From: Amycolatopsis sp. WQ 127309 | Lineage (GTDB): Bacteria; Actinomycetota; Actinomycetes; Mycobacteriales; Pseudonocardiaceae | NCBI RefSeq assembly: GCF_023023025.1 | Contig: NZ_CP095481.1 | Location: 6,709,001-6,773,000 of the forward strand | Direction of reading: 5' to 3' | Length of the DNA stretch: 64,000 nt | Shown: positions 1 through 8,007 of the stretch, one piece after another | Numbering within the stretch: position 1 is the stretch's first letter | Layout of the letters: each line of letters begins with the position of its first letter | The notes under the pieces: generated by a model | Seen by the model: only the letters and a program-made list of their open reading frames with translations | Database searches by the model: none | Told to the model about the DNA's origin: nothing | Program-made: the position numbers and the translations under genes

Positions 1-197
1 AGAACACCCGCGCGATCTTCGGCCGCTCGTACGCCGCCGAGCCGGACGAGCTGATCCGCGAGCTGAAGGAGGACGAAGCCGTCCAGGCCGCGGACACGCT
101 GCTGCTGACCATCCCGAACCAGCTCGGCGTCGACTACAACGCCCACGTGCTGGAAAGCATCCTGACCCACGTGGCCCCGGCGCTCGGCTGGCGCTGA
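1..197 (+). CDS. LLM-class flavin-dependent oxidoreductase, C-terminal end (partial)
   Basis: Only the last 64 codons are in the window, read in the frame starting at base 3 and ending in TGA at 195-197. The tail contains AADTLLLTIPNQLG and ends HVAPALGWR, which resembles the end of luciferase-like (F420- or FMN-dependent) monooxygenases. The substrate cannot be judged from this fragment. The last 60 bases, stop codon included, are repeated at 2188-2247. The 3' end now attached to this gene may therefore have arrived with the inserted AIPR gene and replaced the original end without changing the protein sequence. Confidence 0.7.
   Translation, partial: NTRAIFGRSYAAEPDELIRELKEDEAVQAADTLLLTIPNQLGVDYNAHVLESILTHVAPALGWR
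138..197 (+). repeat. 60-bp direct repeat, copy 1 (3' end of LLM oxidoreductase gene)
   Basis: This 60-base segment, from an AAC codon to the TGA stop, matches 2188-2247 at 57 of 60 positions. The three differences (155/2205, 164/2214, 167/2217) are third-codon-position changes and leave the encoded peptide unchanged. Similarity stops sharply on both sides. This is the pattern expected of a left attachment site in which an incoming element supplies a replacement gene end. Confidence 0.85.
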
Positions 198-353
198 GCA
201 CGCGCTGCAGGTTGGACGGCGCCGGTGGCGTTCATCGATTGATGTACCTCTAACCGGTTGCGGTCACGGTAGGGTCAAGGTCGGGTGCACCTTGGCCCTG
301 CCGAGTGGTTCGAGCTGAACCGCTTCCCCGCCGGCCTTTGAGGAAGAGAGTAG

Positions 354-2135
354 ATGCACACCCTCACAAGCAAGCGCGTCGTGAAGTTCTCGCGAAACTT
401 CGGCTTCGGCGGAACCGAGGCTGAGCAGTTCGAACGATACGTCGCGGCAAACTACCTGTTCCAGTACGTGGGCGACGACGTGGAACTGATTGAGCGTTCA
501 GTTCTCGGCGGTGGTAGCGATGAGGGTATCGACATCGCCGCGGTAGTTGTCAACGGCAGGATCGTCTTTGAGCCAGAAGAGATTGACGAACTCATCGCGG
601 AGCAGGGGGCGAACTCCGCGAAAGTGATCTTCATCCAAGCGAAGACGAGTGAGTCATATGATTCGAAACTGATCGCGAAGTTCCTGCATGGCGTCGAGGC
701 CGTGACAAAGTATGCGATGAAGCCCAAGAGTTTAAAACTTCCTCCGCGATTGGTTGACGTGGCAATCCTGATTGACCGAATCGCCGAGAGTGGTGACAAG
801 TTTCAGGATAGTCGAATTCCATGCGAGCTTTACTATGTCACGACCAGTTCCAACGACGGTAGGAGTGCACAAGCTGAACTTCAGGTCACGGAGGCGATAG
901 GGCGTATTCGAGAGATTGGGGCCTACTCTGAAGATTTCAAGCTCCGCACTCATGGGTACGAGGAACTCGCCGCCAAACAAAAGGAACGCCACGGGCCTCA
1001 GAACGTTCAATTCAACTTCGAGAAGCGTCAAACAATCCCGGCAACGGACAGGGTGAGTGAAGCTTATATAGGGTTGGTGTCCGCAAGTGAACTCTTGAAA
1101 CTTCTCAAGGATGACTCCGGCGATGTCCGTTCTGGCATATTCGACGACAATGTTCGCCTCGATCTCGGTGCTCAAAACTCAGTCAATAGTCGAATTATGG
1201 GGACTCTGCGGTCGGCGGAGCGTGAGCACTTTCCCTTTTTGAACAATGGTTTGACGATCATTGCGACCGAACTCCGTGGACTCGGGGACAGATTTTTCAT
1301 CTCGGGCTATCAGATTGTCAACGGCGGGCAGACGAGCCATCAGCTTATCCGGTGGGCTGAAACTGAAGAGGTGAAGAATTTCCCTCAGTTGATGTTGGAT
1401 CTGTGGGTTCCCGTCAAGATTGTGAGTTCGAACGATTCGGGTGTTCGAACGAGCGTTTCGATTGCGACTAACCTTCAGACCGCGATCGGGTCTTCGGATA
1501 TACAGGCCAGCTCGCAGGTGGCGAAGAATGTTGAAGAGTACTTTGCTCAGTCGGGCGCGGACGGGCTGCGTTATGAACGTCAGAATCGTGGTGCGGCACT
1601 TGAATTCGCTCGAACGCGTGTGGTGACAACACCTGAATTGAATCGCGCTGTCGCGGCTACGCTTTTCGGGGAGTCGTCACGTGCTATCGGATCGCCGAAG
1701 GATCTTGAGGTTGAGGACGCATTTGTATGGGGGGAGCGTCCTGAAGAGACCTACTATTATGCAGCATGGATCATCTATCGTATTGATAGGTACTTTGCTC
1801 GAACTCCGGAGTCGACGACGTTGAAGGCTGCCAAGTATCATCTTTCGATGATGGCTTCGGCGCTCGTAAACCCGGAACTTATTCCGCTATTTGAGGCGGG
1901 AGACATCGATGCTGTGGCCAGTAGGCTGGCGAGGCCGAAGAGGCTTAGCTTTCGAGTGGTCGAGAAGAAGTTTTCTGATGAGATCGAAGGTGCGATTGCA
2001 TTGGCTGCGGAGCTTACGGCCGATCTGTTCCGGACCGTGCTCTCCGAAGGTCGGAGCCTCCGGAAAGACGACGTGCGGAGCAGGAAGAGCCAGGAAGCTC
2101 TCTTGCAGAAGGTGAAGGCGCTTAACAAGAACTAA
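354..2135 (+). CDS. AIPR-family (abortive infection phage resistance) protein
   Basis: This 593-residue protein matches the AIPR family (PF10592 type), which is linked to abortive-infection phage defence and often found near restriction systems. Two core family blocks are clear: FLNNGLTII at about residues 295-303 and QIVNGGQTS at about 320-328. The N-terminal part has GSDEGID (55-60) followed by IFIQAKTS (92-99), a D...(E/Q)xK arrangement like that of PD-(D/E)XK nucleases (inference). The start is supported by GAGGAA upstream of the ATG. The gene is A/T-richer than its neighbours: bases 661-720 contain 31 G/C of 60. It stands alone, with no methyltransferase or helicase nearby, and is flanked by 60-bp repeats of the preceding gene's end. 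It was probably acquired horizontally as a stand-alone defence gene. Confidence 0.85.
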   Translation: MHTLTSKRVVKFSRNFGFGGTEAEQFERYVAANYLFQYVGDDVELIERSVLGGGSDEGIDIAAVVVNGRIVFEPEEIDELIAEQGANSAKVIFIQAKTSESYDSKLIAKFLHGVEAVTKYAMKPKSLKLPPRLVDVAILIDRIAESGDKFQDSRIPCELYYVTTSSNDGRSAQAELQVTEAIGRIREIGAYSEDFKLRTHGYEELAAKQKERHGPQNVQFNFEKRQTIPATDRVSEAYIGLVSASELLKLLKDDSGDVRSGIFDDNVRLDLGAQNSVNSRIMGTLRSAEREHFPFLNNGLTIIATELRGLGDRFFISGYQIVNGGQTSHQLIRWAETEEVKNFPQLMLDLWVPVKIVSSNDSGVRTSVSIATNLQTAIGSSDIQASSQVAKNVEEYFAQSGADGLRYERQNRGAALEFARTRVVTTPELNRAVAATLFGESSRAIGSPKDLEVEDAFVWGERPEETYYYAAWIIYRIDRYFARTPESTTLKAAKYHLSMMASALVNPELIPLFEAGDIDAVASRLARPKRLSFRVVEKKFSDEIEGAIALAAELTADLFRTVLSEGRSLRKDDVRSRKSQEALLQKVKALNKN

Positions 2136-2187
2136 CTGCTGCCGGGTAGGTTGGAGAGAGGTGTTGCTGCTGCTTAGTGCGCAGTGC

Positions 2188-2247
2188 AACGCCCACGTGC
2201 TGGAGAGCATCCTCACTCACGTGGCCCCGGCGCTCGGCTGGCGCTGA
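2188..2247 (+). repeat. 60-bp direct repeat, copy 2 (displaced original gene end)
   Basis: This is the partner of 138-197. It has no reading frame upstream to belong to, but it runs directly into the hairpin at 2257-2302. That makes it the likely original 3' end of the oxidoreductase gene, still beside its own terminator. Upstream sequence (2136-2187) shows no similarity to the sequence before copy 1. Confidence 0.85.
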
Positions 2248-2256
2248 CCCAGACCC

Positions 2257-2302
2257 GTCGTGAGTGTTCAGGGCGGTTAGAACCGCCCTGAACACTCACG
2301 AC
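2257..2302. terminator. Perfect 22-bp hairpin between convergent genes
   Basis: Bases 2257-2278 are the exact reverse complement of 2281-2302, with two bases between them. The hairpin lies two bases past the 3' end of the leftward MmgE/PrpD gene and ten bases past repeat copy 2. It probably acts as a bidirectional terminator, originally shared with the oxidoreductase gene now separated from it by the AIPR insertion. There is no clear U-tract. Confidence 0.75.
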
Positions 2303-2304
2303 CG

Positions 2305-3708
2305 TCAGGTGCGCAGGAGTGCGGTCAGCTCGCCGAGGTCGGCCAGCTCGGCCAGGCCGTACGTCAGTTCGGTGACGCGCGTGCTGACCTCTGTGGGGAG
2401 CACTCGGGCCGCGTTCAGGCGGAACTTCGTGGCCAGCTCTTCCGCCGACAGCGGGTTTTGCGGGCCGCCGCGGTTGGCGTCGACCCGCTCCTCCAGCTCA
2501 CGGCCGTCGCGCAGGCGTACCCGGAGGACCGCCGGGAACTGGTGGGGGAAGATCTCGTCGCACCTCGCGTCCGGGACGCACGTCACCTTCGCCGCCAGGG
2601 CCAGGCGCGCCGGATCCGCCGCGGCCTCGTCGGTGAAGTCGTCGTGGAAGACGCCCAGGCCGCCGCCGCCCAGCAGGCCCGCCGCGACCGTGTACGGGCC
2701 CGAGAACGCCGCGTGGTAACCCGACTTCGGGCGGATCTTGTCCGCGCGCGGCTCGGCGATCGTGCGCAGCACCGACGTCGGCGCGCCCAGCTCCAGAGCG
2801 ACGATCTCCGCCGGGTCGACACCCAGCGAACGCAGGCGCCGGGCCGCGTCGATGCCCGCGTGGGTGAAGTGGTTGCAGGGGTACGGCTTGAAGAAGATCC
2901 CCGGCAGCTCCCAGCGCTCGCCGAGGCCGTCGACGATCGCGTCCACATCGGACTGGTCGCCGCAGAACGCCTGCAGCAGGCCGAACCGTCCTTCGAGGAC
3001 GGTCGGCGGGCCGGTGATGCCGTGACGGGCCATGCCGGCCGCCGTCACGGCGCCGTGGGCGGCCCAGCCGCAGTGGATGCGTTTCACCGTGCCGCCCGTG
3101 CGGTTCGCCTCCAGCAGGCCCGAGCCCATGCTGGCCGCGATGCCAAGCGCGTCGGCAATGCCAGAAGCGTCCACATCGGACAGCATCGCCGCGGCCGCCG
3201 CCGCGCCGAGGGCACCGCAGATCGCCGTCGCGTGCAGGCCGCGTTCGAAGAAGACGGAGTTGCCCAGTTCCTCGTCGTAGCCCGCCATCCCGAGCCGGAC
3301 CGTGATCTCGACGCCGACGCCGATCGCGTCGAGCAGCTGGGCTCCGGTCGCCCCGCGGGACTCCGCGACGGCCAGCGCGGCCGGCACCACCGTCGCCGAC
3401 GGGTGCAGCACCGACGGCAGGTGCGTGTCGTCGAAGTCGAGCGAGTGCGCGAGGGTGCCGTTCAGCAGCGCCGCGCTCGGTTCCGGCAGCCGGTCGCCGG
3501 TGCCGATCGCCGTCGCCCGGCCGGTGCCGCCCCACTCCCTGACCAGCGCGCCGACGGCCGCCGCGGGACGCTCCGACGTCGCGGCCAGGCTGTTGCCGAG
3601 GACGTCGAGGACGCGCCGCGCGGCGTCGTCCCGCAGCTCCGGCGGCAGGCCCTTGGCCCGCACCGACGTCGCGAACGCGGCCAGCTGCTGGACGATCGTC
3701 GCGCTCAC
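2305..3708 (-). CDS. MmgE/PrpD family protein (2-methylcitrate dehydratase-like)
   Basis: A 467-residue protein, close to the usual length of the MmgE/PrpD family, which includes 2-methylcitrate dehydratase and cis-aconitate decarboxylase. Recognisable family segments are HSLDFDDTHLPSVLHPSA near residue 85 and KPYPCNHFTHAG near 300. The chosen GTG start at 3708 overlaps the TGA of the upstream gene (GTGA), so it is translationally coupled. It is the last gene of the leftward four-gene operon with a cyclase-family hydrolase, a CitE-like lyase and a CoA-transferase. In that setting it may hydrate, dehydrate or decarboxylate a di- or tricarboxylic intermediate (inference). A second, divergent family member lies at 11473-12822. 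Confidence 0.88.
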   Translation of the reverse strand: MSATIVQQLAAFATSVRAKGLPPELRDDAARRVLDVLGNSLAATSERPAAAVGALVREWGGTGRATAIGTGDRLPEPSAALLNGTLAHSLDFDDTHLPSVLHPSATVVPAALAVAESRGATGAQLLDAIGVGVEITVRLGMAGYDEELGNSVFFERGLHATAICGALGAAAAAAMLSDVDASGIADALGIAASMGSGLLEANRTGGTVKRIHCGWAAHGAVTAAGMARHGITGPPTVLEGRFGLLQAFCGDQSDVDAIVDGLGERWELPGIFFKPYPCNHFTHAGIDAARRLRSLGVDPAEIVALELGAPTSVLRTIAEPRADKIRPKSGYHAAFSGPYTVAAGLLGGGGLGVFHDDFTDEAAADPARLALAAKVTCVPDARCDEIFPHQFPAVLRVRLRDGRELEERVDANRGGPQNPLSAEELATKFRLNAARVLPTEVSTRVTELTYGLAELADLGELTALLRT

Positions 3709-4526
3709 GCCGTCACCGCCGCGAGGGGACGCACGGGGGAGCCGGTGCCGCCGACGATCCGCAGCGGCGCCAGCACGAACACGAACTCGTGAAGGCCTTC
3801 GGCCGCGACGGCCTCCAGGTTCAGGTGCTCCAGGATGAAGATGCCCGACTCCACGAGCAGGATCCGGTGCACCGGCAGCACGGCGTGCCCGGCCCCGGCC
3901 GGGATCTGCTCGTAGGCGGTCGTGTCCGCGCCGGTCGCGACGACACCGCGTGCCGCCAGCCACTCCGCCGCCGACGTCGTCGCGCCGGGGACACCGGTCT
4001 CCTTGCCCAGGTACGTCGTCGCGTCGTCGAAGTTCCGCGCCCAGCCGGTGCGGATCAGCGCGACGTCGCCGGCGCCGGGTTCGGTGCCGGCCAGCTTCGC
4101 GGCCGCGTCCAGGTCGTCGGCCGTGACGCCGTACCCCGGTTCCAGCGTGGGGACGTCGTGCACCGCGGCGACGTCCAGCAGCACCGCGCGCCGCAGCAGG
4201 CCGGGCAGGTTCTCCGCGCCGTGCGTGCGGAACACGCCGCCTTGCTGGGCTTCGGCCGCATCGACGTCGCCGTGGAGCTTGCCGTCGTGGCTGACGTGCG
4301 AGAGCGCGTCGATGTGGGTGCCGACGTGCCCGCCGGTCACGATGATCTCGTTGGCGGCCGACCCGCCGTCCGGGCGGCGCATGTCGCCGTGACGGCGGAT
4401 CAGCGTCATCCGGAACCCGGGGTGGTTCGGCGAGCAGGGCATGCCGGTGAAGAACGGCTGCCCGAGCTCGATCAGCCGGACCCCGCCGGCGATCGCCGAC
4501 AGCAGCGGATCCTGGGGTCGTGTCAT
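3705..4526 (-). CDS. Cyclase-family metal-dependent hydrolase (kynurenine formamidase-like)
   Basis: A 273-residue member of the bacterial cyclase/kynurenine formamidase family. The metal-binding signature HVGTHIDALSH is present near residue 67. Family members are usually Zn or Mn amidohydrolases acting on N-formyl or other amide bonds, so hydrolysis of an acyclic amide released by ring opening is plausible here (inference). The ATG at 4526 overlaps the upstream TGA (ATGA), and its own stop overlaps the next start (GTGA). Although the family name suggests cyclisation, hydrolysis is the usual reaction. Confidence 0.85.
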   Translation of the reverse strand: MTRPQDPLLSAIAGGVRLIELGQPFFTGMPCSPNHPGFRMTLIRRHGDMRRPDGGSAANEIIVTGGHVGTHIDALSHVSHDGKLHGDVDAAEAQQGGVFRTHGAENLPGLLRRAVLLDVAAVHDVPTLEPGYGVTADDLDAAAKLAGTEPGAGDVALIRTGWARNFDDATTYLGKETGVPGATTSAAEWLAARGVVATGADTTAYEQIPAGAGHAVLPVHRILLVESGIFILEHLNLEAVAAEGLHEFVFVLAPLRIVGGTGSPVRPLAAVTA

Positions 4527-5332
4527 GAGTGCTGGCCTTCCTTTTCTTCCGCCTCCGCGAGCGCGAGCACCCACCGGGCGCGCGCCACGATCGCGGCGTC
4601 GACGAACTGTCCGTTGTGGTCGATCCAGGCGGCCGAGCCGGCCGACGAGAGCAACTCGCGTGCCCACGCCGTCTCGGCCGGATCGGGCGCGAAAGCCTGG
4701 TGCACCACGGGAATCTGGGTTGGGTGGATCACCGAGCGTCCGAAGAACCCGGCCCGCCGCCCGGCTTCGGTGCTCGCGCGCAGGCCGTCGAGGTCGCGCA
4801 CAGCGGTCCAGACGCTCTGCACCGGGCTCGGCAGCCCGGCCGCCCGCGCGGCGACGACCACCCGGGACCGCGGCCAGGTCAGCGCGTCCCCGCCGGCGAC
4901 GCGCAGGTCCGCGGCCAGGTCGGCCTCACCGAGGGAGATCCCGGCGACGAGCGGGTGCGCGGTGGCGATGACCAGCGCGTTCTCGACGCCCAGCGCCGAT
5001 TCCAGCACCGGGTACACCGGCACGCCGAGCGCGTCGGCGACGCGGCGCAGCTCGCCCGGGTCCTCGCACTTGGGCACCCGCACCCCGGCCGGGGCCAGCG
5101 GAGCCAGCGCCGCGATGTCGGCCTCGCCGGCGTCGGTGCCCGGCGCGTTGATCCGGACGAACGCGGTCGCGCCGTCGCCCAGCGCGGCCAGCGCGTTCCG
5201 CCGGGCGCCGTCCTTCGCGGCCGCGGCGACGGCGTCCTCGATGTCGATGATGACGGCGTCCGCCGGGCCGGCCAGAGCCTTCGTGATCCGGTCCGGCCGG
5301 TCGCCCGGGACGTAGAGCCAGCTGCGGATCAC
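4523..5332 (-). CDS. HpcH/HpaI aldolase / CitE-like CoA ester lyase
   Basis: A 269-residue protein of the citrate lyase beta-subunit (CitE) type. Visible family segments are YVPGDRPDRITKAL at the N terminus, IIDIEDAV (acidic metal-binding loop), RINAPGTD, VPKCEDP and GRSVIHPTQIPVV. Stand-alone CitE-like proteins cleave or form C-C bonds in malyl-CoA, citramalyl-CoA and related thioesters. With a CaiB-type CoA-transferase directly upstream, the simplest reading is activation of a hydroxy-diacid to its CoA thioester and retro-aldol cleavage here. The GTG start at 5332 overlaps the CoA-transferase stop (GTGA). Confidence 0.87.
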   Translation of the reverse strand: MIRSWLYVPGDRPDRITKALAGPADAVIIDIEDAVAAAAKDGARRNALAALGDGATAFVRINAPGTDAGEADIAALAPLAPAGVRVPKCEDPGELRRVADALGVPVYPVLESALGVENALVIATAHPLVAGISLGEADLAADLRVAGGDALTWPRSRVVVAARAAGLPSPVQSVWTAVRDLDGLRASTEAGRRAGFFGRSVIHPTQIPVVHQAFAPDPAETAWARELLSSAGSAAWIDHNGQFVDAAIVARARWVLALAEAEEKEGQHS

Positions 5333-6516
5333 TTGATGACGCCTTTTTCGCGCAGGGCGGCCAGTTCCGGCTCGCCCAGGCCGTAGCGCCCGAGGACTTC
5401 GGCGGTGTGCGCGCCGAGCGGCGCCCCGGCCGTGGTGAGGTGCCCGGGTGTCTCCGACAGCCGGAACAGCACGTTCTGCATCTTCACCGGCCCCAGCTCG
5501 TCGTCCTCGACGGTGGCGATGCTGTTCAGCGCGGCGAACTGCGGGTCGGCCATGACGTCGGCGGCGGTGTAGATCGGCGCGACGGCGGCCTGGGCCTGTT
5601 CGAACGCCTGGACGACGTCGTCGCGGTCGCGGTCGGCGATCCACGAGCCGACGGCGTCGTCGAGCAGGTCGGCGTGCTGCGCGCGCTCCGAGCCGCTGGC
5701 GAACCACGGCTCGTCGATCAGCTCCGGGCGCCCGACCAGCCGCATCACGCGCTCGGCGATCGACTGGGCGCTGGTGGAGATGGCCACCCAGCTGCCGTCG
5801 CGGGTGCGGTAGGTGTTGCGCGGCGCGTTGTTCGTGGACCGGTTGCCGGTGCGCGGCTGCAGCGTGCCGAGCTGGTCGTAGGCGATGATCTGCGGCCCGA
5901 GCAGGGTGAGGATGGGCTCGATGATGGCGAGGTCGACGACCTGCCCGCGGCCCGTCTGATCCCGGGCCCGCAGCGCGGTCAGCACGGCGTAGGCGGTGGT
6001 CAGCGCGGCGATGCCGTCGGCCAGGCCGAACGGCGGCAGGGTCGGCGGGCCGTCGGGCTCGCCGGTGATCGCGGCGAACCCGCTCATCGCCTCGGCGAGC
6101 GTGCCGAAGCCGGGGCGCTTCGCGTACGGGCCGACCTGGCCGAACCCGGTCACGCGCGTGAGCACCAGGCCGGGGTTGATCTCGCGCAGCACGTCGTACC
6201 CGAGGCCCCAGCGCTCCAGCGTGCCCGGGCGGAAGTTCTCCACGACGACGTCGGCGTCGGCGACCAGTTTCTTGAAGATCTCCTGGCCCTCGGGGGAGCC
6301 GAGGTAGAGGGTGATCGCCTTCTTGCCGCGGCCGAGCATCTTCCACCAGAGGCCGACGCCGTCGCGCTGCGCGCCGTGGCTGCGGACCGGGTCGCCCTTC
6401 GGGTGCTCGATCTTGATCACCTCGGCGCCGAAGTCGCCCAGCAGCGTCGCGGCCAGCGGGCCGGCGAACAGGGTGGCGGTGTCGAGCACCCGGATCCCTG
6501 ACAAAGCGCCCGTCAT
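5329..6516 (-). CDS. CaiB/BaiF (type III) CoA-transferase
   Basis: A 395-residue type III CoA-transferase and first gene of the leftward operon. Typical segments are LLGDFGAEVIKIEHPKGDPV at the N terminus, ENFRPGTLERWGLGY, GFGQVGPYAKRPGFG and FGLADGIAAL, the last probably holding the catalytic Asp. The family moves CoA between carboxylic acids through an aspartyl-CoA intermediate. The substrate is unknown, but the neighbouring CitE-like lyase suggests a hydroxy-dicarboxylate. The upstream region shared with the ABC importer contains two IclR-type operator-like sites, one at 6563-6579, which points to joint induction. Confidence 0.88.
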   Translation of the reverse strand: MTGALSGIRVLDTATLFAGPLAATLLGDFGAEVIKIEHPKGDPVRSHGAQRDGVGLWWKMLGRGKKAITLYLGSPEGQEIFKKLVADADVVVENFRPGTLERWGLGYDVLREINPGLVLTRVTGFGQVGPYAKRPGFGTLAEAMSGFAAITGEPDGPPTLPPFGLADGIAALTTAYAVLTALRARDQTGRGQVVDLAIIEPILTLLGPQIIAYDQLGTLQPRTGNRSTNNAPRNTYRTRDGSWVAISTSAQSIAERVMRLVGRPELIDEPWFASGSERAQHADLLDDAVGSWIADRDRDDVVQAFEQAQAAVAPIYTAADVMADPQFAALNSIATVEDDELGPVKMQNVLFRLSETPGHLTTAGAPLGAHTAEVLGRYGLGEPELAALREKGVIK

Positions 6517-6562
6517 GGGGCGTACCTGCCTTTCTCGTCCGACGGCCCGGGAGTGGGTGCCC

Positions 6563-6579
6563 GTTTCGCCGGGGGGAAC
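6563..6579. promoter_or_regulatory. IclR-type operator-like site 1 (CaiB operon side)
   Basis: The sequence gtttcgccggggggaac fits GTTTC-N7-GGAAC, the pattern also found at 6718-6734 and 17178-17194. Here it lies 47-63 bases before the CoA-transferase start. Because one site sits beside the IclR gene itself, that regulator is the likely binder (inference). Confidence 0.55.
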
Positions 6580-6668
6580 AACTGTGAACGTCGTGTTTCG
6601 TGGTGACGTCTCTCCGTGTTCCCCAAGTTCGCACTGATCATGCGCGTACGTCAAGTTATGCGCAGATG

Positions 6669-6698
6669 TTGACCTGACGTCGGGCCGGGTGTCACGAT
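6669..6698 (+). promoter_or_regulatory. Candidate promoter of ABC importer operon
   Basis: TTGACC (6669-6674) is followed after 18 bases by CACGAT (6693-6698). The -35 is good and the -10 is weak. The operator-like site at 6718-6734 would lie just downstream of the transcription start, where a bound repressor could block elongation. Confidence 0.35.
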
Positions 6699-6717
6699 GA
6701 CCGATAACAAATCTGGC

Positions 6718-6734
6718 GTTTCGCTTAGCGGAAC
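6718..6734. promoter_or_regulatory. IclR-type operator-like site 2 (importer operon side)
   Basis: The sequence gtttcgcttagcggaac is an imperfect 17-bp palindrome with 14 positions symmetric about its centre. It shares GTTTCGCT and GGAAC with the site upstream of the IclR gene. It lies 29 bases before the importer's first start codon. Confidence 0.65.
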
Positions 6735-6762
6735 GGCAGCCCTTCCAGTGGGAAGAGGTGAC

Positions 6763-8007
6763 ATGTCCGCACGAAAACTCGTCGCGACGCTCGGCGCGTG
6801 CGCCCTGCTCGCGACCGGGTGCGGGGGCTCGGCGCCGATGGGGGCCGGCGGCGCGGCCGCGGGGCGGGACGAGGGCCCGGTGAAGATCGGCGCGCTGCAC
6901 CCGGTCAGCGGCTCGAACGCGGTCGACGGCCTGCAGATGCGCCGCGGCGCGCAGCTGGCGGTCGACGCGATCAACGCCGCCGGCGGCATCTCCTCGCTCG
7001 GCGGCCGCAAGGTCGAGCTGGTCACCGGCGACACCCAGGGCAAGGCCGACATCGGCCAGAGTGAGGCGCAGCGGCTGATCTCGGCCGGCGCGGTGAGCCT
7101 GGTCGGCACCTACCAGAGCGCCGTGAGCACCAACGTCGCCGTCGTGGCCGAACGCAACCGGGTGCCGTTCGTGATGGACGTGACCGCGTCCGACGCGATC
7201 TTCGCCCACGGCTACCAGTACTCGTTCCGCGTCCAGCCGGGCAGCAACGCGATCGCGACGGCCGCCGCGCAGTACCTGAAAGCGGTTTCGGAGCAGGCCG
7301 GGAAGCCCGTCCGCAAGGTCGCGTTCCTGCACGAGCAGAGCGACTTCGGCACCGGCGCGGCCGACGCCTTCACCGCGGCCGCGAAGCAGCTCGGCATCGG
7401 CGTCGGGCCGAACATCAGTTACGACGCCACCACCGTCAGCGACCTGACCGCGCAGATCACCCAGGTCAAGGCGTCCGGCGCGGACGTGCTGGCCGTCGCC
7501 GGCTACTACCGCGACAGCCTGCTGGCGGCCAAGGCGATCGCCTCGGTGAAACCGGATCTCAACGCGGTCTGGGGCGTCTCGAACGGCGCGTACGACCAGC
7601 CGAAGTTCGTCGCCGACGCGGCCGCGCTCGGCAACCTCTACTTCAGCGCCAACTACCACTACGACGCGACCAATCCCGAGACCGTCGCGCTGCGCGAGAA
7701 GTACCAGCAGCAGTACGGCGACCCGATGCGCACCGGCGCGGTCCTGTCCTACGACGCCGTCCAGGTCATCGCGCACGGCGTCGAGCAGGCCGGCAGCACC
7801 GACCCGGAGAAGGTCCGGGACGCGATCGCCGCCGCCCAGGTCGCGCCGCTGACCGTCGGTCGCGGGCAGATCGAGTTCGCCCCCAACGGTGACAACCGCA
7901 ACGCCTTCCCGGTGCTGATGCAGGTCCGGGACGGGCGCGTCCAGCAGGTCTATCCCCCCGAAAAAGCCGAATCCCGGCCCGACTACAGGGTGGCGTGGCG
8001 CCCATGA
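6763..8007 (+). CDS. Branched-chain amino-acid-type ABC importer, substrate-binding lipoprotein
   Basis: A 414-residue periplasmic-binding-fold lipoprotein of the LivK/Leu-Ile-Val-binding family. The N terminus is a lipoprotein signal peptide ending in the lipobox LATGC, with the lipidated cysteine at residue 20. The mature part opens with VKIGALHPVSGSNAVDG, typical of the family. The ATG at 6763 is preferred because GGAAGAGG lies just upstream; in-frame starts further 5' lack a ribosome site. It is the first gene of the rightward operon and presumably captures the substrate degraded by the enzymes encoded on both sides. Its ligand cannot be told from sequence, and the family takes many non-amino-acid ligands. 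Confidence 0.9.
   Translation: MSARKLVATLGACALLATGCGGSAPMGAGGAAAGRDEGPVKIGALHPVSGSNAVDGLQMRRGAQLAVDAINAAGGISSLGGRKVELVTGDTQGKADIGQSEAQRLISAGAVSLVGTYQSAVSTNVAVVAERNRVPFVMDVTASDAIFAHGYQYSFRVQPGSNAIATAAAQYLKAVSEQAGKPVRKVAFLHEQSDFGTGAADAFTAAAKQLGIGVGPNISYDATTVSDLTAQITQVKASGADVLAVAGYYRDSLLAAKAIASVKPDLNAVWGVSNGAYDQPKFVADAAALGNLYFSANYHYDATNPETVALREKYQQQYGDPMRTGAVLSYDAVQVIAHGVEQAGSTDPEKVRDAIAAAQVAPLTVGRGQIEFAPNGDNRNAFPVLMQVRDGRVQQVYPPEKAESRPDYRVAWRP

Follow-up and report, generated by a model that had tools for sequence, protein, structure and literature searches.

In most descriptions, defence genes travel as cargo on phages, satellites and integrative elements. For AIPR genes, the parts of the literature cited here place them among the cargo of Streptomyces AICEs (PMC9513070), list them with other genes of a P4-like satellite hotspot (PMC9122126), and describe their linkage to R-M genes (PMC3506569). 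Insertion with a long target duplication has been described for R-M genes of Helicobacter (Nobusato et al. 2000, as quoted in PMC1643837, PMC3031569 and PMC3874152). Homology-facilitated illegitimate recombination is the subject of the cited parts of PMC5361080 and PMC3240628, the first of which proposes that in T6SS immunity arrays an orphaned old gene end lies behind the new gene. The initial annotation of the locus described below regarded it as a possibly undescribed route for moving AIPR genes; insertion with long target duplication was, according to the excerpts cited, already in print for R-M genes. Within the open-licence literature searched, we found no account of an AIPR gene inserted with a long target duplication, nor of the gene end concerned here as a target.

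Here, we have analysed a 64-kb stretch of DNA (the window) from a genome that consists of a single contig of 11.13 Mb (G000), and describe an AIPR/AbiU-type gene that lies between two copies of the end of a luciferase-like (LLM) oxidoreductase gene. The window starts inside the oxidoreductase gene, the 3' part of which is an open frame at 3-197 on the + strand (whole gene: L009 9175-10197). The whole gene matches PF00296 (E 1.6e-28), and no NCBIfam model scored above its cut-off. The last 61 bp of the gene, including the stop codon, form repeat copy 1 (137-197, + strand) and recur as copy 2, a displaced gene end, at 2187-2247 on the + strand. The initial annotation had reported a repeat of 60 bp ending at the stop codon; the repeat is real and its length is 61 bp. 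As also reported there, the copies differ at three positions (58/61 identical), all of them third codon positions, and encode the same peptide. In 20 dinucleotide shuffles of window positions 1-8000, the best pair of 61-mers reached 36-40 identities, and in the window itself the match between the copies breaks off abruptly at either edge of the 61 bp. If codon positions were equally likely to change, three out of three differences at third positions would have a chance of 1/27; between the oxidoreductase genes of the window and of its relative G066, 40 of the 50 differences are at third codon positions. Since their differences are of this kind, copy 1 and copy 2 look like two coding alleles, on the strength of three sites only.

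The insert between the copies is 1,989 bp long, low in GC, and carries a single large gene on the + strand (354-2135, 593 aa), preceded by a left spacer (198-353) and followed by a right spacer (2136-2186). That this is an AIPR gene, as first proposed, is borne out by matches to PF10592 (93.4 bits, E 2.8e-26, above the curated cut-off of 25), to PADLOC AbiU (E 4.6e-85) and to PHROG 1841 (E 7.9e-47). Assignment to MzaE of the MZA system fails, with 33 bits against an NCBIfam equivalog cut-off of 1050 bits. The gene has a GC content of 0.534 and a GC3 of 0.611, below the oxidoreductase (0.701 and 0.962) and the whole window (GC 0.717), and is therefore taken as foreign. Its family membership suggests that it may serve in phage defence. 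Residues D56, E57, D60 and Q95-A-K97 are invariant among 27 aligned proteins of the AIPR subfamily, a pattern which we take to recall a PD-(D/E)xK nuclease. In the same alignment, a C-terminal RSLRKDDVR stretch is highly conserved, with P0107 ending before it. An N-terminal HEPN domain is instead described for AIPR proteins in the cited part of PMC3506569. Our search for a relative with a solved structure found none.

Copy 2 is followed, after a gap of 9 bp, by a hairpin at 2257-2302. The initial annotation called it a hairpin terminator; the hairpin is indeed perfect, with arms of 22 bp, and the T run required by the terminator scan is missing from it. As the scan did not report it, we call it terminator-like. 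The promoter and terminator scan of the locus was otherwise uninformative. The hairpin is one member of a family of dispersed palindromes, with matches at no fewer than 18 other places in the same genome, a lower bound, since 40 of 286 candidates were scored. Similar palindromes of the GTCGTGAGTG type stand after the same gene end in G066, G031, G068 and G038.

That the AIPR segment is an insertion came from the comparison with G066, which has one oxidoreductase end, then the same hairpin and the same downstream gene, and no AIPR insert. The flanks of the insert align with G066 over 3,003 bp at 93.9% and 2,828 bp at 93.5%, and the two alignments overlap by 65 bp in G066. Because this site is empty, the AIPR segment is an insertion with target duplication, and copy 2, which is continuous with the flank in G066, and the hairpin represent the old right-hand side of the site. 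This insertion history is well supported. The initial annotation had regarded copy 2, next to the hairpin, as the likely ancestral end and had expected a strain without the AIPR gene to have a single end directly before the hairpin, and G066 agrees on both counts. Its suggestion that the AIPR gene brought copy 1 with it is harder to judge. Any two of copy 1, copy 2 and the end in G066 differ at 2-3 of the 61 positions; all three have an Ala codon which, among 61 loci, otherwise occurs only in G038, so that a donor allele of copy 1 is indistinguishable. Sliding identity also gave no resolution of a donor, the gene being too conserved, and neither a crossover point nor a homologous joint could be located.

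A second insertion was found in G042, where an AIPR gene with 86% amino acid identity to that of the window sits at the same oxidoreductase end (77% over window 1-2122 in the genus gene-end search). Its duplication is 45 bp long (45/45 identical) and runs from the last two oxidoreductase codons (CGCTGA) through the adjoining hairpin sequence, with one copy after the oxidoreductase and the other at the AIPR end. The Arg and stop codons of the G042 AIPR gene coincide with the CGCTGA at the start of the repeat, a possible 6-bp microhomology. G069, G017 and G025, which are relatives of G042, have a single copy and no insert. The 61-bp and 45-bp duplications overlap in CGCTGA only, the duplicated stretch lying to the left of CGCTGA in G000 and to its right in G042. 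In both cases the AIPR gene is codirectional with the oxidoreductase, whose frame is intact. Behind the AIPR gene stands a hairpin (in the window the original one, in G042 a second copy), where it would terminate transcription. The two species are represented by one strain each.

How often the gene end is used was surveyed in the genus and the family. The genus search covered 80 genomes and gave a match in 65; matches in G027, G054 and G058 were short and weak, which leaves 62 with the gene end. Sixty-one loci, including that of the window, were read for ∼13 kb downstream, G053 being left out (one match in the family search). Among these 61 loci, an AIPR gene at the oxidoreductase end is present in G000 and G042 only. 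The same two, G000 (E 1.3e-24) and G042 (E 3.9e-20), are also the only ones with a conspicuous repeat between the gene-end region and the 13 kb downstream; the third-best pair, in G060 (E 3.6e-9), is located 123-160 bp downstream of the stop. In the family search, which covered 327 genomes, a second match to the gene end turned up in several of them, and none except G000 appears twice among the matches listed (E ≤5e-7). Three candidates per genome were scored in the genus gene-end search and in the 390-genome AIPR search described below, and two in the 327-genome search. A general integration hotspot at the gene end was considered and rejected, as the remaining loci of the 61 have no repeat there. 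By rough arithmetic, two independent insertions within ∼100 bp in 10-Mb genomes would have a chance of ∼1e-5, and this small value, although noticed after the fact, makes a site preference or a shared anchor likely.

AIPR relatives are widespread. Among the best 120 of 198 protein matches at E ≤1e-30, relatives with at least 80% identity occur in many actinobacterial genera. At the level of genomes, close relatives are sparse: at least 80% identity in 4 of 390 family genomes (G000, G042, G181 and G171), close loci in 3 of 397 genomes at order level, with G467 the only new one, in 1 of 394 at class level (the window's own), and in 1 of 401 genomes of the family of G396, at 43% identity. Plasmids (54 records) and phages (7 records) hold relatives that are all below 60% identity, and viral contigs hold none.

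Some of these relatives sit in units with an integrase. The AIPR gene of Paractinoplanes ferrugineus (L151, G1061) shares a 3.4-kb unit with a PF00589 integrase, and this unit is bordered by two identical 44-bp tRNA-Pro ends. Four tRNA-Pro 3' ends are present on the L151 contig, and an intact tRNA-Pro is on another contig; the four ends apparently mark several integrated units in a row, and the AIPR gene and the integrase are in one of them. In G135 (L148 4743-10426), a 5.6-kb unit holds a distant AIPR gene between 55-bp tRNA-Arg ends, with an integrase recognised by PHROGs (E 1.1e-18) and not by Pfam. The tRNA-Arg(CCT) gene at this unit is of the same type as that found 5' of the AIPR gene in G171 and G181, where the AIPR gene starts ∼0.5 kb after the tRNA-Arg gene; no second tRNA-Arg end was found in these two genomes. 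In G467 and L152, the AIPR gene is beside putative transposase-like genes. The surroundings in G467 (L161 3686-16456) include a putative DNA methyltransferase, a Vsr-like gene and an IS3-type transposase, as well as three genes that may form a set resembling a Wadjet-type system. In 1.40 Mb from 83 sources, we found 8 pairs of direct repeats (38-150 bp, at least 93% identity, 0.3-9 kb apart), and 4 of the 8 flank an AIPR gene, which is not an unbiased rate because the sources were chosen around the gene end or an AIPR gene. Most AIPR loci have no such flanking repeat.

These units bear on the question of whether the repeats are attachment sites, produced by site-specific integration at the gene end with a recombinase that acted in trans or was later lost. 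Prophages integrate in icd, and islands at tRNA genes, and the initial annotation likened the present locus to phage-like integration of this type. Four observations speak for such an origin, namely that the same gene end was used twice, that CGCTGA is part of both duplications, that AIPR relatives do occur in integrase units between tRNA-end repeats (P. ferrugineus and G135), and that the gene end is conserved, with 87% identity in an alphaproteobacterial plasmid. They are outweighed by what the locus itself looks like. In line with the initial annotation, no recombinase was found: tblastn with two tyrosine-integrase queries found no integrase relative in the insert or elsewhere in the 64-kb window, and the one weak match in the 61 loci (E 2.6e-4, in G013) is upstream of the gene end. 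No other cargo lies between gene-end repeats in any of the 61 genus loci, where different cargo had been predicted, and the 326 other family genomes show no second strong copy among the matches listed. The duplications, moreover, extend to opposite sides of CGCTGA, and thus involve a different segment in G042, unlike what one fixed attachment site would leave. A search for a free element carrying the gene end, which the initial annotation had proposed as a way to find the source, gave no viral contig with the exact degenerate pattern and no phage record, and the plasmid matches span the gene-end part only, the annotated rows shown being the LLM gene. We consider a recombinase acting at CGCTGA, in trans or later lost, rather unlikely, and the main rival of the explanation preferred below. 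Over ∼100 bp, the DNA of the oxidoreductase end is highly conserved, with 93.9% identity in a plasmid of Streptomyces and 87% in one of Alloyangia, and a conserved gene end would suit as a recombination anchor as well as an attachment site.

Whether the two insertions go back to one event was addressed by comparing the two AIPR genes. Fourfold sites of the window and G042 are identical at 131 of 179 positions in the oxidoreductase (0.73) and at 106 of 249 in the AIPR gene (0.43). GC3 of the AIPR gene is 0.61 in the window and 0.85 in G042, and the left spacers give no alignment above shuffles (137 of 500 shuffles reach the score). Since the duplicated segments, the fourfold sites, GC3 and the left spacers all differ, we read the insertions, from these sequence comparisons, as probably separate acquisitions. 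The closest protein cluster to the AIPR of G042 bears the name Amycolatopsis sp. cmx-4-83, which makes Amycolatopsis the probable genus. A clade of the window, G042 and P0107 proteins was rejected (p-AU 0.006). One old insertion inherited by both lineages and lost elsewhere, with the repeats permitting exact loss, would draw on the quick tree, which groups the two genes (SH-aLRT 84), and on a test in which their clade was not rejected (p-AU 0.245). The careful tree does not join them, and they come together in 6% of 200 bootstrap trees; with the lower fourfold-site identity of the AIPR gene, the difference in GC3, the exact and clade-specific repeat in G042 and the many losses required, this history is very improbable. 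Least probable of all is that the oxidoreductase gene was duplicated in tandem and that a deletion and the capture of AIPR came afterwards. This could account for the genus-rare Ala codon common to both copies and G066. It was rejected because the identity ends sharply at 61 bp, which leaves no remnant of the more upstream part of the gene before copy 2, and it needs another event for G042.

The explanation that we prefer, and regard as probable, is that a foreign solitary AIPR/AbiU-type gene was inserted at the LLM gene end with a long target duplication, likely without an enzyme of its own. We propose that the AIPR gene, with ∼0.2 kb of flanking DNA, entered codirectionally at the 3' end of the conserved oxidoreductase gene, together with the 61-bp target duplication; the oxidoreductase retains an intact end, and the second end with the old hairpin is now found behind the AIPR gene. 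In G042, a related AIPR gene, acquired separately, would have entered the same gene end with the different duplication of 45 bp. Joining presumably took place by recombination for which the unit did not have to bring an enzyme; the likeliest routes are homology-anchored illegitimate recombination and end joining with fill-in. In the homology-anchored route, one end would pair in the conserved gene end and the other would join with little or no homology. Three matches to Ku genes are present in each of G000, G042 and G066.

The two coding alleles in G000 fit a donor-borne gene end and fit a purely local duplication poorly, on three sites only; the first terminator copy in G042 is exactly native and fits local duplication better than a donor-borne anchor, unless the donor was conspecific. 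Apart from G000 and G042 themselves, we found no possible donor in which the oxidoreductase and AIPR genes are linked. Random capture does not readily account for two insertions at a single gene end, and would have to be combined with an anchor or with a preference for the site. More tentatively, and with doubt, one could regard the solitary AIPR gene as a recombinase-free, site-directed mobile unit that repeatedly enters the gene end around CGCTGA, copies or captures a stretch of target to one side of it without disrupting the host gene, and depends on host recombination or on a recombinase in trans.

If the preferred reading, insertion of a solitary AIPR gene with long target duplication, is correct, it would extend the insertion mode of R-M genes to abortive-infection-type genes. 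The oxidoreductase gene end would offer a defined locus for testing the joining mechanism, and the repeat should be easy to follow in strain collections because, in the loci examined, it occurs only where an AIPR gene sits.

Compared with integrase elements such as L151, L148, the Streptomyces AICEs and the P4-like satellites, the present locus shares the AIPR cargo, as far as the cited parts of the literature on the latter two go, and it shares with L151 and L148 the direct repeats of a 3' gene end at the borders. It differs from them in that no integrase was found, the target is the end of a protein gene, the insert is a single-gene one of 2.0 kb, and the repeats are not the same in G000 and G042. 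Homology-facilitated illegitimate recombination, as set out in the excerpts cited, would produce a homologous joint at one end, an illegitimate one at the other, and an orphaned gene end behind the new gene; here, in contrast, a linked oxidoreductase-AIPR donor was not found and the homologous joint is not locatable. The closest likeness is to the long-target-duplication insertion of R-M genes, in so far as the sources cited describe it: comparison with a close relative shows a defence-type unit without its own recombinase to be an insertion, and the direct target duplication that goes with it is long and variable (61 bp and 45 bp here). The locus works like an R-M-type insertion without being a member of that class, because the insert gene gives AIPR/AbiU matches only. 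Set against those R-M cases, again within the cited parts of the sources, what distinguishes it is a solitary AIPR cargo, its occurrence in actinomycetes, and the use of one gene end twice with different duplicated segments.
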